Below, piece after piece: positions 39,340 through 44,977 of a stretch of 45,783 bases of DNA. A program made the translations under genes and the position numbers. Below the pieces are notes generated by a model. That model had not been told where the DNA came from. It worked only from the letters and a program-made list of their open reading frames with translations, and searched no databases. The stretch lies in NCBI GenBank assembly GCA_016935665.1, contig JAFGQN010000225.1, forward strand, positions 1-45,783, given 5' to 3'. The stretch's first letter is position 1; every line of letters starts with the position of its first letter. The DNA is from Deltaproteobacteria bacterium. Lineage in GTDB: Bacteria; Myxococcota_A; Polyangia; JAAYKL01.

Positions 39340-40635
39340 ATGACATCGGAGACACAGGCGAAAGACAGAATCCATTTTTGGGCTGCGACGGACGTTGGAA
39401 AGAAGCGCGATCACAATGAGGATAATTTTCTGGTCGATAAAAACATGAATCTTTTTGTGGTTGCCGATGGCATGGGAGGACACGCGGCGGGTGAAGTGGC
39501 TTCTGGCATTGCTGTGAAATCCATGAGGGACATTGTTTCCCAGAACAAGGATTTGATTGAAGCATACGAAGAGGGTTCCGCCATGGCCACTAAAAAGGAT
39601 GTGGCCAGTCTGCTGGAACATGCGGTTCATAAAGCCTGCGAAGAAATTTACAATATCGGCGCCAGAGATCCTGAGAAACGCGGAATGGGAACCACTTTGT
39701 CGGCACTGCTCATTATTAACAAGGACGGTTTCATGGCGCATGTGGGCGATAGCCGAATTTATCTTCAACGGGGAAATCGGGTGATTCAGCTGTCGGAAGA
39801 TCATTCGCTTATCAATGAGCTCATCAAGCGCGGAAAACTCACCGCTGCAACGGCACAGGATTCGCCCTATAAAAACGCGGTGACTCGTGCTGTAGGCGTT
39901 TACGAAAGTGTGGAAGTGGATACCATGGATTTCGATGTGCTGCCGGGCGATCAGTTTCTTCTGGCCACGGATGGTCTCACTGGCTATCTCAAAGATAAAG
40001 AAATCCCAGGCATAATGACCTTGAATTCAAATATCAAAGACTTGCCGCCGGCGTTTATCAACCTGGCCAACAGCAGAGGCGGCAAAGACAACATCACCTG
40101 TATTGTGGTGCGAATGGTGGACCACGATGGACGTGCCGCGGAACTGCATCGCGAAATCGACCGCCGGATTGAAGTCATTAAGCGAATGCCCATTTTCAGG
40201 TATCTGACGTATAACGAGCTGATACAGGTCCTGAATATTACCAAAGTGGTATCTGTTTCAAGTGGGCAAAATATTGTGACAGAAGGGGACGCGGGGGATG
40301 CACTGTTTATTGTGCTGGAAGGTTCTGTTCGGGTGCACAAAGGAGACCTTGATATCGTCACCCTGCCCCCTGGCGCGCATTTTGGCGAGATGGCCCTTAT
40401 CGATACGGCCCCACGCTCGGCCAGTGTCACAGCTGAAACAGCCGGGCAGCTGCTGGCCATCACAAGAGATGATTTTTTCCATATCATCAAAGCCGAACCA
40501 CGGATGGCCAACAAGTTGCTGTGGAGCTTTTTGCAGGAGTTATCCAGTCGCTTGCGCACCACCAACGAAGAATTGAGCGAAGATCGCAAAACCGACCTTG
40601 AAGATCTCACCGAAGAGCTGTTTGATATCGATTGA
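39340..40635 (+). CDS. PP2C-type Ser/Thr phosphatase fused to a cyclic-nucleotide-binding domain
   Basis: The product has 431 residues. The PP2C domain (about 10-255) keeps the metal-binding motifs: DVGKKRDHNEDN, VADGMGGHAAGE, GMGTTL, AHVGDSR, LATDGL and GGKDNIT. A cNMP-binding domain (about 280-400) follows, with GQNIVTEGDAGDALFIVLEGSV and the phosphate-binding-cassette segment HFGEMALIDTAPRSASV, in which Glu and Arg are kept. Phosphoprotein dephosphorylation is thus probably controlled by a cyclic nucleotide in the cytoplasm. A c-di-AMP synthase lies nearby, but this domain class normally binds cAMP or cGMP. The matching kinase is not in the window. The cupin gene follows after 23 nt. Confidence 0.9.
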   Translation: MTSETQAKDRIHFWAATDVGKKRDHNEDNFLVDKNMNLFVVADGMGGHAAGEVASGIAVKSMRDIVSQNKDLIEAYEEGSAMATKKDVASLLEHAVHKACEEIYNIGARDPEKRGMGTTLSALLIINKDGFMAHVGDSRIYLQRGNRVIQLSEDHSLINELIKRGKLTAATAQDSPYKNAVTRAVGVYESVEVDTMDFDVLPGDQFLLATDGLTGYLKDKEIPGIMTLNSNIKDLPPAFINLANSRGGKDNITCIVVRMVDHDGRAAELHREIDRRIEVIKRMPIFRYLTYNELIQVLNITKVVSVSSGQNIVTEGDAGDALFIVLEGSVRVHKGDLDIVTLPPGAHFGEMALIDTAPRSASVTAETAGQLLAITRDDFFHIIKAEPRMANKLLWSFLQELSSRLRTTNEELSEDRKTDLEDLTEELFDID

Positions 40636-40658
40636 TGAACCTGCTACACGGAGGAAAT

Positions 40659-41033
40659 ATGTCGAATACACCGATTGTCACACACGTGGATAATGTACCG
40701 GATGTGGATGTGCCCCGCAGTAAAGGCGCCACAATAAAAGTTATTTTAGGCGATAAAGAAGGTATGCCTCATTTTCATACGCGGATTTTTACCCTGGCCC
40801 CCGGCACGGTCATTGCCAGCCATCATCACGACACCATCGAACACGAGCAGGTAATGCTCGAAGGCACCATGAAACTTACCGTGGGAGATGAAATCCATGT
40901 CGTAAAACCCGGAAATGTGATGTATTTACCCAAAGGCCTCCCCCATTCCTACGAAAACATTGGGGATACACCGGCTCGTTTCGTATGCTGTATTCCGGCG
41001 AATTTGCCTTACACCACCAATTTTGAGCAATGA
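40659..41033 (+). CDS. Cupin-domain protein
   Basis: ATG 40659 is preceded by GGAGG; the longer frame from 40632 overlaps the phosphatase stop. The 124-residue product is a single cupin barrel with both metal motifs: MPHFHTRIF and ASHHHDTIEHEQVMLEG (His and Glu ligands), then PKGLPHSYEN with the last His. It could be a small dioxygenase, isomerase or ligand-binding protein; the substrate cannot be read. It is probably co-transcribed with the PP2C-cNMP gene. Confidence 0.82.
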   Translation: MSNTPIVTHVDNVPDVDVPRSKGATIKVILGDKEGMPHFHTRIFTLAPGTVIASHHHDTIEHEQVMLEGTMKLTVGDEIHVVKPGNVMYLPKGLPHSYENIGDTPARFVCCIPANLPYTTNFEQ

Positions 41034-41045
41034 CACGACACGGCG

Positions 41046-43376
41046 CTACACCGACTGCATCATATGCACCCTGGTTTTCTCAAACTGCCCTTCCAGTTTT
41101 TCGAGCAGCCCAGACAGTTTCGGGTAATTGGATCCAGTCGCTGCCTGTTCAATCTGCCGGGCTACCTGACGCACACTTTCAGCGGTCACGTCCTCGGATG
41201 CACTTACCAGACTTCTGGCGATGTTCCTGGCGATGTCTAATTCGTTGCGTGCTATGGCCTGCTTGAGTTCCACAATCTGATTTATTGCATCCTGCAGATA
41301 GGAAAGCAGAATGCAATTGTACATTTCCTCGTCGCCCACCAGCTGTTCCATCAACTTGTCCCCTTCAAACAGAGTCTCCTCCGCAGCTGAATGGAAAGTG
41401 CAACTTTCGTTCCCTACTGTTTCGATGAGCCATTTGGTTATTTTTTCATCGAACGCGGCCATGTTTACCGGTTTGAAGATATAGTCGTTCATTCCAGCGC
41501 TCAGATACTGACGCGTATCTTCGTCCGAGGCATATGCGGTCATTGCCACAATGGGAACGGAGTGATTGAGTACCGGCGATGTGGCGTTGCGAATGATTTG
41601 TGTGGCCTCGAATCCGTTGAGATTGGGCATTTGAATGTCCATAAACACCAAATCATAGTCCTGTTTGGAGAGTATATCGATGCATTGCTGTCCATCATTC
41701 GCCAGTTCGACACGGTATCCCAGTTTTTCAAGCAGCTTCATTGCCACTTTCTGGTTCACCAGGTTGTCTTCCACCAGCAGGACGTGGGCGCGGCGCTTCA
41801 GTTCTTCCTGCAACGTGTGCCGGGTAATTACACGCGGTGAGTCCAAATCAAACTGGCGCCTGTTGTGCCTGGCAAGGGAAATACTCTGCCCCAGGTGTTC
41901 CACATTCACGGGTTTGGGTAAATATACTTCAAACCCCATTTCCCTCAGTTCGCGCACATCTCCGCGAATTCCCCGGACAGTGAGCATAATGATAATGGTG
42001 TTTTTTAAATCCGGGTGCTGTTTAATTTTTAATCCCAGTTCCTTGCCGCTCATTGGCATTCCTGAAAAATCGGATTCCAGGTCCATATCGATGATGGCCA
42101 CGTCGAATGGCCTGCGCCCTTTCGATGCGTCCAGCAGTGTCTGAAACACCTCCTCGGCATTGTCTCGATACTCACATCGGCAATTGTACTGGTCCTTAAG
42201 CTGTAGTGACATCATTTCGCCGGACTCCCGGACGTCGTATACCATCACTTTGCTGTCATCCCGGCCGGTGCCTTCCGTGGAGGAGACACGTGACTCGGTA
42301 TACTGTGGCAGGGTCACACGAATACGAAATAATGTACCCCCATCGGGATTGGACAACACGTCAATGGAACCATCCATTTTTTCAACCAGTTTATGAGCGA
42401 TATAAAGTCCCAGACCGGAGCCGCCGAAGTGCCGCATGGAAATATTTTTGGAATCAAAAAACGAGTCGAAAACATGGGCGCGTTGCGCGTCATTCAGCGA
42501 AATGCCCGTGCTCGTCACCGAAATCTCGATAGATGCGTTTCCATTCCAGATGTCAGTATCCCTGTAACAAACAAGTATATTCCCCCGACTTGTGTACTCG
42601 ATGGCGTTCAACACAATCGTTGTAACGGCCTGCCGTAATCGCCCCGCATCCCCTATCAGATTGCTGGGAATATTATCGGAAACATCGGAGTGATAGCTCA
42701 GACCTTTGGTTTCAGCCATGGGAGAAAGGGAATCATCAATATTTTTGATGATTAAACGCAAATCAAACAAGTCATTGTCGAGGTTTAAATCACCAGTTTG
42801 AATCCGTGACAAATCCATTAAATCAGCTATGATTCTCAGCAGCAGTTCGGCACTGGTACGAATGGTGGCCGCATAGTCCAGCTGTTCTTCTGTTAATTCC
42901 GTATCCATCAGCAGACCTGCCATCCCAATAATACCATTCATTGGCGTTCTAAACTCGCTGCTCACCTTTTTTATGTAGTTGCCGTAAGATGATGCTTCCT
43001 TTTTCAGCGAGATGGCGGGGGGCCAGGGTTCCTGACTGCTTTTCTCAAAAACATGAATTTCGATAGGTATTTCCAATGTGCCCATATACGCGTAGATCAG
43101 CTCGGCTTCGACCATATATTCATCGGTGGTCACCAGATGCACCAGCGATTTTGCTGTTCCGCTTTTAATGCACTCAGCGACGGCTTTTCTGTGATGAAAA
43201 TTTTCTGCGCTAATCACCTGGAAAACCAGATTCTGACTTCTGGCGGCAGCCTCGGCCGGGATGTAACGTTGTTGAAAACGCAAATCGAACTGCAGAATAT
43301 TGCCATCAAAGTCCACAATCAGGCTTCCTGAAGACGCAAGATCTATGATACGTTGCCTGATTTTTTCTTCCTGCAT
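41046..43376 (-). CDS. Degenerate hybrid histidine kinase (PAS-like, HisKA-like, HATPase, two receivers, HPt-like)
   Basis: The product has 776 residues: a PAS-like sensor (about 8-110), a HisKA-like region (about 130-195), an ATPase fold (240-357), receiver 1 (376-500), receiver 2 (530-650) and an HPt-like helical region (670-765). The H-box reads VSSEFRTPMNG, so Ser140 (codon at 42957-42959) replaces the phospho-accepting His. The G1 box reads VTSTGISL, losing the Asp that holds adenine, although LNAIEYT and GGSGLGL remain. The HPt motif reads ARSLVSAS, with Arg721 in place of His. Receiver 2 is intact (Glu536-Asp537, Asp580, Lys635); receiver 1 keeps Asp430 and Lys488. It is probably a non-catalytic signalling scaffold or phosphate acceptor. 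Confidence 0.85.
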   Translation of the reverse strand: MQEEKIRQRIIDLASSGSLIVDFDGNILQFDLRFQQRYIPAEAAARSQNLVFQVISAENFHHRKAVAECIKSGTAKSLVHLVTTDEYMVEAELIYAYMGTLEIPIEIHVFEKSSQEPWPPAISLKKEASSYGNYIKKVSSEFRTPMNGIIGMAGLLMDTELTEEQLDYAATIRTSAELLLRIIADLMDLSRIQTGDLNLDNDLFDLRLIIKNIDDSLSPMAETKGLSYHSDVSDNIPSNLIGDAGRLRQAVTTIVLNAIEYTSRGNILVCYRDTDIWNGNASIEISVTSTGISLNDAQRAHVFDSFFDSKNISMRHFGGSGLGLYIAHKLVEKMDGSIDVLSNPDGGTLFRIRVTLPQYTESRVSSTEGTGRDDSKVMVYDVRESGEMMSLQLKDQYNCRCEYRDNAEEVFQTLLDASKGRRPFDVAIIDMDLESDFSGMPMSGKELGLKIKQHPDLKNTIIIMLTVRGIRGDVRELREMGFEVYLPKPVNVEHLGQSISLARHNRRQFDLDSPRVITRHTLQEELKRRAHVLLVEDNLVNQKVAMKLLEKLGYRVELANDGQQCIDILSKQDYDLVFMDIQMPNLNGFEATQIIRNATSPVLNHSVPIVAMTAYASDEDTRQYLSAGMNDYIFKPVNMAAFDEKITKWLIETVGNESCTFHSAAEETLFEGDKLMEQLVGDEEMYNCILLSYLQDAINQIVELKQAIARNELDIARNIARSLVSASEDVTAESVRQVARQIEQAATGSNYPKLSGLLEKLEGQFEKTRVHMMQSV

Positions 43377-43501: not shown

Positions 43502-43654
43502 CATTGTGCATACGGTGACATCGGAATTTCAATATGAATGAAACGGAATTTTAAAGGATAAACACCATTATTCACTTTGCACGCAACGTATTATGACTAA
43601 ACTATACTGCATCATTTGAAAATGTGTTTGAACTCAACAGACGAGGAGAAATTT

Positions 43655-44977
43655 ATGTCCAGATTCTATTTATTTATCATGCTTTTGTTGGTCTGTGCCC
43701 TTTGTTTGGTCGGCTGCAAGAAAAACAAGGACACCAAGACGGCGGAAGATGCAAAGGAAGAGACAACGTCGGACGATGACGATGGGGATGACGATGATGA
43801 TGATGACGATGATGACGATGATGACGATGATGACGACGATGATGACGATGATGATGATGACGACGATAGCGGTCCCAAATCCCCGGACAATGATTTCAGC
43901 AATCGCAAAACCAAAAAGTACAAAGTATATGTAAAACAGGCGCAGATTATTCCCATGAAGCCTTCGGCGCAATGTTGGGATGAATGTGGTCCCAAGGTAG
44001 AAACGGCTATCACTGCGGCGTCTTCCAAAGTGGAAGCGCTGGGGGCCCCATCCCAAAGCAAATTCGGCGCAGCCGCCAAAGTGTTGGAAGCGGGAATCGG
44101 CCTCGCCGGTGGGAAATCCGCTTTCCCTGATGTGATGGTGCGCGTTGACTGCGGAAATGATCAGACGTTTGAAAGCGATACGGTTGAAGACAAAATGGTT
44201 GCAAAATGGGAAGGCGCCAAAACCACGATGAAACTCGACAAGCGCGATGAATGCGCCATCAGTGTTTGGGATATGGATGAGGATGGCGACGAAAAAGAGA
44301 TTATTGGACATGCCACTGTGGCGCTGGTGGAAAAAGCCAAAAGTAACGGCAAAGTTCTGTTGTACGGCGCGGAAGAAGACATGGGTCTGGTTTATTCCCT
44401 TGAGTTGAAGGTGAAATCAGCATCGGATGGGGACGATGATGACGATGATGACGATGATGATGACAGCAAGGGGGATGACGACGACGATGATGACGACGAC
44501 GGAGATGATGACGGTGGCAAAGGAGACAAATATTCAGTCAAAATCATCTCTGTGGAAGTGAAAACAGAAAAAGACGATGGAAATCCCTGGGATGCTAAAA
44601 ATGTGGCTTCGGGACTCTTAAGCAAATTCACAGGCGGCGGCGGCGGTGATGACGATGATGATGATGATGATGATGATGAAGCCAATAAACCGGATATTTT
44701 CATCGAAGGGTATTTGAATGGGTATAAATCCAAAAAGCCGTTTATGAAAACGGACAAATCCAAAGATGATTACAAAGCCGAATTCAATAAATCCAAAACC
44801 GTTCGCGCCGAGAAAAAGGATAAAATCCATTTTATGGTTTGGGACGCGGATTTAACCAATCACGACCTGATTGGTGAGTGCAAAACCAAAAAACTGTCTC
44901 AGGTGAAAGACGGCGAATTGACCTTGAAAAACTGTGGTCAGGTAAAAGAACTCGTTGTTGAAATCGAGAAAAAATAA
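43655..44977 (+). CDS. Poly-aspartate lipoprotein with two C2-like domains
   Basis: ATG 43655 has GAGGAG 6 nt upstream. The 440-residue product has lipobox LVGC (Cys21), then a tract of about 30 Asp (40-71). A first domain (about 80-255) contains PDVMVRVDC, CAISVWDMDEDGD and IIGHATVAL. A second Asp-rich tract (about 258-287) precedes a second domain (about 290-440) with a third Asp run, then PDIFIEGYLNG, IHFMVWDADLTNHDLIGECKT. The two domains share the pattern of C2 domains, with acidic loop residues that usually bind calcium, and look like an internal duplication. The function is unknown; calcium-dependent surface binding is an inference. The antisense of the Asp tracts gives false poly-Ser frames. 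Confidence 0.7.
   Translation: MSRFYLFIMLLLVCALCLVGCKKNKDTKTAEDAKEETTSDDDDGDDDDDDDDDDDDDDDDDDDDDDDDDDDSGPKSPDNDFSNRKTKKYKVYVKQAQIIPMKPSAQCWDECGPKVETAITAASSKVEALGAPSQSKFGAAAKVLEAGIGLAGGKSAFPDVMVRVDCGNDQTFESDTVEDKMVAKWEGAKTTMKLDKRDECAISVWDMDEDGDEKEIIGHATVALVEKAKSNGKVLLYGAEEDMGLVYSLELKVKSASDGDDDDDDDDDDDSKGDDDDDDDDDGDDDGGKGDKYSVKIISVEVKTEKDDGNPWDAKNVASGLLSKFTGGGGGDDDDDDDDDDEANKPDIFIEGYLNGYKSKKPFMKTDKSKDDYKAEFNKSKTVRAEKKDKIHFMVWDADLTNHDLIGECKTKKLSQVKDGELTLKNCGQVKELVVEIEKK
43772..43867 (+). repeat. (GAT/GAC)n microsatellite encoding poly-Asp
   Basis: 32 codons, of which 31 are GAT or GAC and one GGG. Trinucleotide slippage would change the Asp tract length without a frameshift. Confidence 0.9.
44426..44513 (+). 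repeat. (GAT/GAC)n-rich tract encoding an Asp/Gly/Lys linker
   Basis: Two Asp runs are split by a short Ser-Lys-Gly segment, between the two C2-like domains of the lipoprotein. Confidence 0.85.
44648..44677 (+). repeat. (GAT)n tract encoding poly-Asp
   Basis: About ten consecutive Asp codons, mostly GAT, follow five Gly codons inside the second C2-like domain region. Confidence 0.85.

Follow-up and report, generated by a model that had tools for sequence, protein, structure and literature searches.

The 45,783-nucleotide stretch of DNA analysed here (the window; contig JAFGQN010000225.1 of a deltaproteobacterial assembly) encodes a pseudo-hybrid histidine kinase in which autophosphorylation and transfer through the HPt are both predicted, from the motifs, to be dead. 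The protein looks like a maintained non-catalytic regulator, as are DivL and RetS, and the gene does not look like one in decay, because two sister species share its identical dead motifs. The gene and its parts, all on the reverse strand, are as follows.

41046..43376 (-): pseudo-hybrid histidine kinase gene, 776 amino acids, comprising a PAS-like region, DHp, CA, REC1, REC2 and an HPt-like domain (open frame, Pfam domains, orthologues P0002 and P0003)
43041..43352 (-): N-terminal PAS-like region, residues 9-112 (strand and helix order in the AlphaFold2 model)
42777..42986 (-): DHp/HisKA domain, residues 131-200 (Pfam; the best conserved part, 73-80% between orthologues)
42957..42959 (-): Ser140 codon (AGC), replacing the phospho-acceptor His of the H-box (Ser in all three orthologues)
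42303..42776 (-): CA/HATPase domain, residues 201-358, with a degraded ATP site and relaxed constraint (conservation against controls)
42510..42512 (-): Ser289 codon (AGC), replacing the G1-box Asp (Asp in both other orthologues)
41862..42254 (-): receiver 1, residues 375-505 (orthologue alignment; D381, D430, T466 and K488 kept)
41427..41789 (-): receiver 2, residues 530-650, with the full catalytic set (Pfam and orthologue alignment)
41637..41639 (-): Asp580 codon, expected phospho-acceptor of receiver 2 (alignment)
41049..41384 (-): HPt-like helical domain, residues 665-776 (sub-threshold Pfam match and AlphaFold2 model)
41214..41216 (-): Arg721 codon (AGA), replacing the HPt His (Arg in all three orthologues)

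Pfam places HisKA at residues 136-195, HATPase_c at 242-357 and two receivers (best match 532-646), with an HPt match at 690-759 that falls below the cut-off. The AlphaFold2 model (mean pLDDT 81.8) displays a PAS-like N-terminus, a DHp helical hairpin, a CA domain in which the ATP lid (307-320) is of low confidence, two receivers and a C-terminal helical HPt-like bundle. Together, Pfam and the model give the domain order DHp-CA-REC-REC-HPt of catalytic BarA/GacS-type hybrid kinases. No PAS hit was found in the Pfam search of the 776-residue protein, so that the PAS-like assignment reflects predicted secondary structure alone; this region is poorly conserved (22-38% identity between orthologues). 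In receiver 1, the second acidic residue is replaced by Val, Glu and Phe across the three orthologues. Receiver 1 of the trio also carries a few extra residues after D430 (DMDLESDFSGMPMSG; 42045-42089 on the reverse strand), which are predicted to form a β-hairpin beside the phosphorylation site.

Inspection of the codons bears out an earlier note on this DNA, which had placed Ser140 in the H-box, a replaced Asp (Ser289) in the G1 box and Arg721 in the HPt domain of a frame open over 776 codons. In the trio, position 140 is encoded by AGC, AGC and AGT (all Ser) and position 721 by AGA, CGG and CGG (all Arg), with K724 and G725 of the HPt also lost. A single-base or sequencing error is rejected as their origin: the Ser140, Arg721 and G1 codons each lie at least two bases from a His or Asp codon, and both Ser140 and Arg721 are seen again in two further genomes. 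The loss of the G1 Asp is recent and limited to the window species, since this residue is intact (GAT) in both orthologues; the three losses thus differ in age, Ser140 and Arg721 being common to the trio. The ATP-site damage common to all three members lies outside the G1 Asp and comprises N253 (Thr in all three), K260 (Glu, Glu and Gln) and the second G1 glycine, G293 (Ser, Ser and Asn); N257, the G2 box and Arg315 of the CA domain are still present. The best explanation of these sequences would be that the catalytic part was lost before the split of the three species of the genus.

Receiver 2 is intact, as had been read from the window, with E536, D537, D580, T613 and K635 present in all three orthologues; this is compatible with phosphorylation and is not proof of it. 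The earlier description of the altered sites as all three residues needed for phosphorelay input holds for the losses, but the word 'input' is loose: an HPt stands at the output end, and receiver 2 is still able to accept phosphate.

The H-box change is rare among related kinases. In 143 distinct homologous rows (open reading frames at the fetched loci) the H-box column is His in 137; the six remaining rows carry Ser (three, the trio only) and single instances of Asn, Gln and Pro. The window genome gives at least 130 HisKA matches, and among those listed 50 of 52 HisKA domains have the His, the exceptions being the window gene and a kinase on contig C126 (Gln). Two window-genome kinases, L019 (G000 C126) and L018 (G000 C36:142817), have the non-His H-boxes MSQELLTPLN and MSNELRIPAL, respectively, and are not closely related to the window gene. 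A second family of this class, found in one genus (G081 and G092), offers a parallel: in L043 (1468-3420, forward strand) the H-box His has become Pro and the HPt His has become Arg, and in its relative L041 (1486-3402, forward strand) the H-box still has its His and the HPt position is Leu. This pair suggests a stepwise loss with the HPt going first, and the His-to-Arg change in the HPt of the L043 family appears to have arisen independently of that in the window trio.

Among the genomes searched, the only full-length orthologues come from two further species of the genus, G001 (56-57% identity) and G002 (53%). This is the small clade sharing Ser in the H-box and Arg in the HPt for which the earlier note had proposed a search. 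Searching with a profile of the three orthologues yielded no further match at E <= 1e-150, either within the class (318 genomes) or in 379 genomes drawn across the phylum, and the best 80 loci from the search of genome contigs are other hybrid kinases with at most 38% identity. The orthologue sample thus consists of three sequences, from assemblies that are fragmented drafts. In the tree the trio forms a clade with full support, a stem of 2.09 changes per column and tips of 0.33-0.39; its position among other hybrid kinases is weakly resolved.

The neighbours of the gene are kept in G001. These are a PP2C phosphatase fused to a cyclic-nucleotide-binding domain (39340-40635, forward strand; 89% identity), a cupin gene directly after it (40632-41033; 83%), both near the pseudokinase in G001, and, adjoining it there, a protein that begins like a lipoprotein and contains C2 domains and long poly-Asp runs (43616-44977, forward strand; 73%). 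The pseudokinase evolves faster than these three flanking genes (56% identity to its G001 orthologue versus 73-89%). No partner kinase or response regulator is encoded adjoining the gene and no operon partner was found; likewise, no partner was identified among the HisKA hits, at least 130 in number, in the genome. At locus L144, two adjacent intact hybrid kinases (L002 and L004; 1545-3884 and 3857-6349, forward strand) form a pair kept in all three members of the genus.

As controls for constraint by domain we used four trios of orthologous hybrid kinases that are intact and drawn from these three genomes; three of the control trios have an HPt. Invariant columns make up 69% of the DHp, 40% of the CA domain, 56% of the receivers and 53% of the HPt in the pseudokinase trio, compared with 79-82%, 58-76%, 48-67% and, for the three HPt trios, 30-48% in the controls. 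The CA domain is less invariant than in each control trio (Fisher p = 8.6e-4, 1.5e-4, 4.9e-10 and 4.0e-11), receiver conservation is not distinguishable from that in three controls (p = 0.07 to 0.37) and is below that in the remaining one (p = 0.01), and the dead HPt is at least as conserved as the working ones. Only the CA domain has clearly lost constraint; the receivers and HPt stand at or near the control level. Synonymous sites are saturated (pS 0.70-0.93) and nonsynonymous sites are not (pN 0.13-0.37 across domains), indicating purifying selection on every domain, weakest among the C-terminal domains on CA. We claim no dN/dS value because the dS estimates are saturated, and since only three orthologues exist, selection is judged here from few sequences and saturated synonymous sites.

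Columns counted as family-conserved reach at least 85% conservation across 39 other hybrid kinases. Of these, 14 of 37 in the DHp and 15 of 48 in the CA domain differ in every member of the trio; the pooled figure is 29 of 85, whereas none of six control clades exceeds 8 of 89 (0-4 changed columns per domain). In 12 of the 14 altered DHp columns (among them L135I, A136K, N137K, M138V, H140S and I142F) the trio carries one identical residue, and helix 1 displays an altered motif, YIKKVSSEFRTPMNGIIGMAGLL, that is identical in all three orthologues. Since most of these changes are to the same residue, the DHp was rewritten and then frozen.

With the CA domain alone clearly relaxed, the receivers and the dead HPt conserved about as in working proteins and the motif of DHp helix 1 frozen, simple decay is argued against and a maintained pseudokinase is supported, in agreement with the earlier reading of the gene. 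The accompanying claim of selection for a non-catalytic role is likewise favoured by domain conservation against the controls; its premise of three independent losses kept by selection is not supported, the G1 Asp having gone recently and in the window species alone.

From features read directly in the sequence, namely the losses, their sharing across the genus, the intact receiver 2 and the constraint pattern, we infer a partner, a direction of phosphate flow and an effect on the cell. The PAS-like input would govern the DHp, paired either with a second copy of itself or with a different kinase. Asp580 of receiver 2 would be phosphorylated by a partner kinase or HPt, and the pseudo-HPt with its Arg721 would be unable to hand the phosphate onward. 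The protein would then serve as a phosphate sink, or as a platform whose binding depends on phosphate, and so damp or integrate another relay. The most likely role is that of a RetS-like sink or integrator, which probably dimerises or docks through its DHp and is phosphorylated on receiver 2 by another kinase, the phosphate going no further. Placing phosphate on receiver 2 without onward transfer, binding a partner through the DHp, or both, is the simplest role that draws on the conserved parts. That the protein neither autophosphorylates nor relays through its own HPt and is kept for regulation as such a sink or platform is a proposal to which we give an even chance of being right as a whole. 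A more specific form of it, which we regard as speculative, is a genus-specific relay terminator, in which the Arg of the pseudo-HPt would hold the phosphorylated receiver, phosphate captured from the paralogous kinase network would be freed only by hydrolysis and the dead DHp would give partner specificity through its new helix-1 motif.

Among other readings, a binding regulator of the DivL or RetS type deserves the most attention, as a tentative alternative of appreciable if limited probability. Here the remodelled DHp would dock a phosphorylated response regulator or heterodimerise with a kinase, exerting allosteric control, and the receivers would be structural or modulatory. The DHp is the most conserved domain despite its missing His, most of its trio-wide changes are to a single residue as described above, the close relatives with solved structures include DivL and RetS, and DivL binds DivK~P with neither kinase nor phosphatase activity (PMC4211667). 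Taken alone, however, this reading leaves the full catalytic set of receiver 2 and its control-level conservation unexplained. A dedicated transmitter phosphatase, in which the His-less DHp would dephosphorylate a receiver through Thr144 of the ExxT motif, seems doubtful. E141 and T144 are kept in all three orthologues, and such a role is conceivable in view of CrdS of M. xanthus, which depends on its His only in part: the His mutant loses kinase activity with only a modest reduction in phosphatase activity (PMC3510030). The two residues are, however, invariant across the 42-sequence set, which makes their retention uninformative; the CA domain is degraded, and the corresponding mutations diminish phosphatase activity in HK853 (H260A; PMC5727384) and abolish it in PleC (H610A; PMC3510030).

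Slow decay that has yet to reach the frame would fit conservation below that of the neighbours, the relaxed CA domain and the fresh G1 loss. It is rendered improbable by a full-length frame in three species at 53-57% identity with synonymous sites saturated, and by receivers and a pseudo-HPt about as conserved as in intact kinases. A Ser-to-Asp relay starting from phosphorylated Ser140 is the least credible reading, and we consider it very improbable. In its favour, all three orthologues carry Ser140, serine can in principle accept phosphate, and N257 and the G2 box survive; but N253, K260 and the second G1 glycine are gone, as are the G1 Asp in the window species and the HPt His, and DivL, with a Tyr at the equivalent position, has no autokinase activity (PMC4211667).

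Comparison with known systems supports placing the protein among the bacterial pseudo-histidine kinases, a functional class that includes DivL, RetS and RcsD: it has the histidine kinase fold with the catalytic residues lost, the loss is shared by all three genus members, and the protein appears to be maintained by selection. The best NCBIfam match is the BarA equivalog NF008318, at 321.7 bits far below its 890-bit cut-off, and the RcsD model matches residues 129-364. The domain order resembles that of BarA/GacS-type kinases with an HPt, but the H-box His, an intact ATP site and the HPt His are all missing and, on reading the N-terminus by eye, no membrane-spanning sensor is seen. RetS is membrane-bound and is not known to have an HPt, and RcsD is not known to have a complete receiver. 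Like the window protein, RetS of Pseudomonas is a kinase-dead hybrid with two receivers, and the two proteins are close in the DHp-CA region (E = 7e-30). The RetS catalytic core inhibits GacS autophosphorylation and its REC2 accepts phosphate from the GacS His; RetS keeps an H-box His and HExxT motif (PMC5992135), in contrast to the window protein with its missing His and its pseudo-HPt. DivL of Caulobacter likewise has its phospho-acceptor His replaced in a conserved clade with the DHp fold kept, probably under selection, and illustrates that a His-less DHp can sense a phosphorylated regulator; it differs in carrying Tyr, keeping its CA motifs and ending after CA (PMC4211667), whereas the window protein has a degraded CA domain followed by two receivers and a pseudo-HPt. 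RcsD of Enterobacteria is a hybrid-kinase-like relay member with no kinase activity and a working HPt His (PMC5651002), unlike the window protein with its dead HPt and complete receiver 2. In plants, AHP6-type pseudo-HPts are His-less proteins kept as relay inhibitors (PMC3572949); these stand alone, whereas the window pseudo-HPt is fused to receivers and carries Arg. Gating by c-di-GMP as in ShkA has no clear support in the alignment to that protein: Y338, one of the ShkA residues of REC1 that contact c-di-GMP, corresponds to Y485 (kept), but the Arg of KPLR corresponds to Asn491 and no DDR motif is seen in the REC1-REC2 linker. The literature searched holds no description of a protein whose DHp and HPt are both dead, which does not prove that there is none.

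Pseudo-histidine kinases are thus already known, with AHP6 as a pseudo-HPt, and the window protein is a variant that combines both dead His sites with a complete receiver. In bacteria they are known from a few studied cases, each retaining a different part. Because both His sites are dead and one receiver is complete, in a protein fixed in its genus among more than 100 kinases, the window protein offers a test of whether a hybrid kinase can persist solely for its receiver and docking surfaces. A relaxed ATPase domain set against constrained receivers and pseudo-HPt may serve as a simple genomic mark of maintained pseudokinases.
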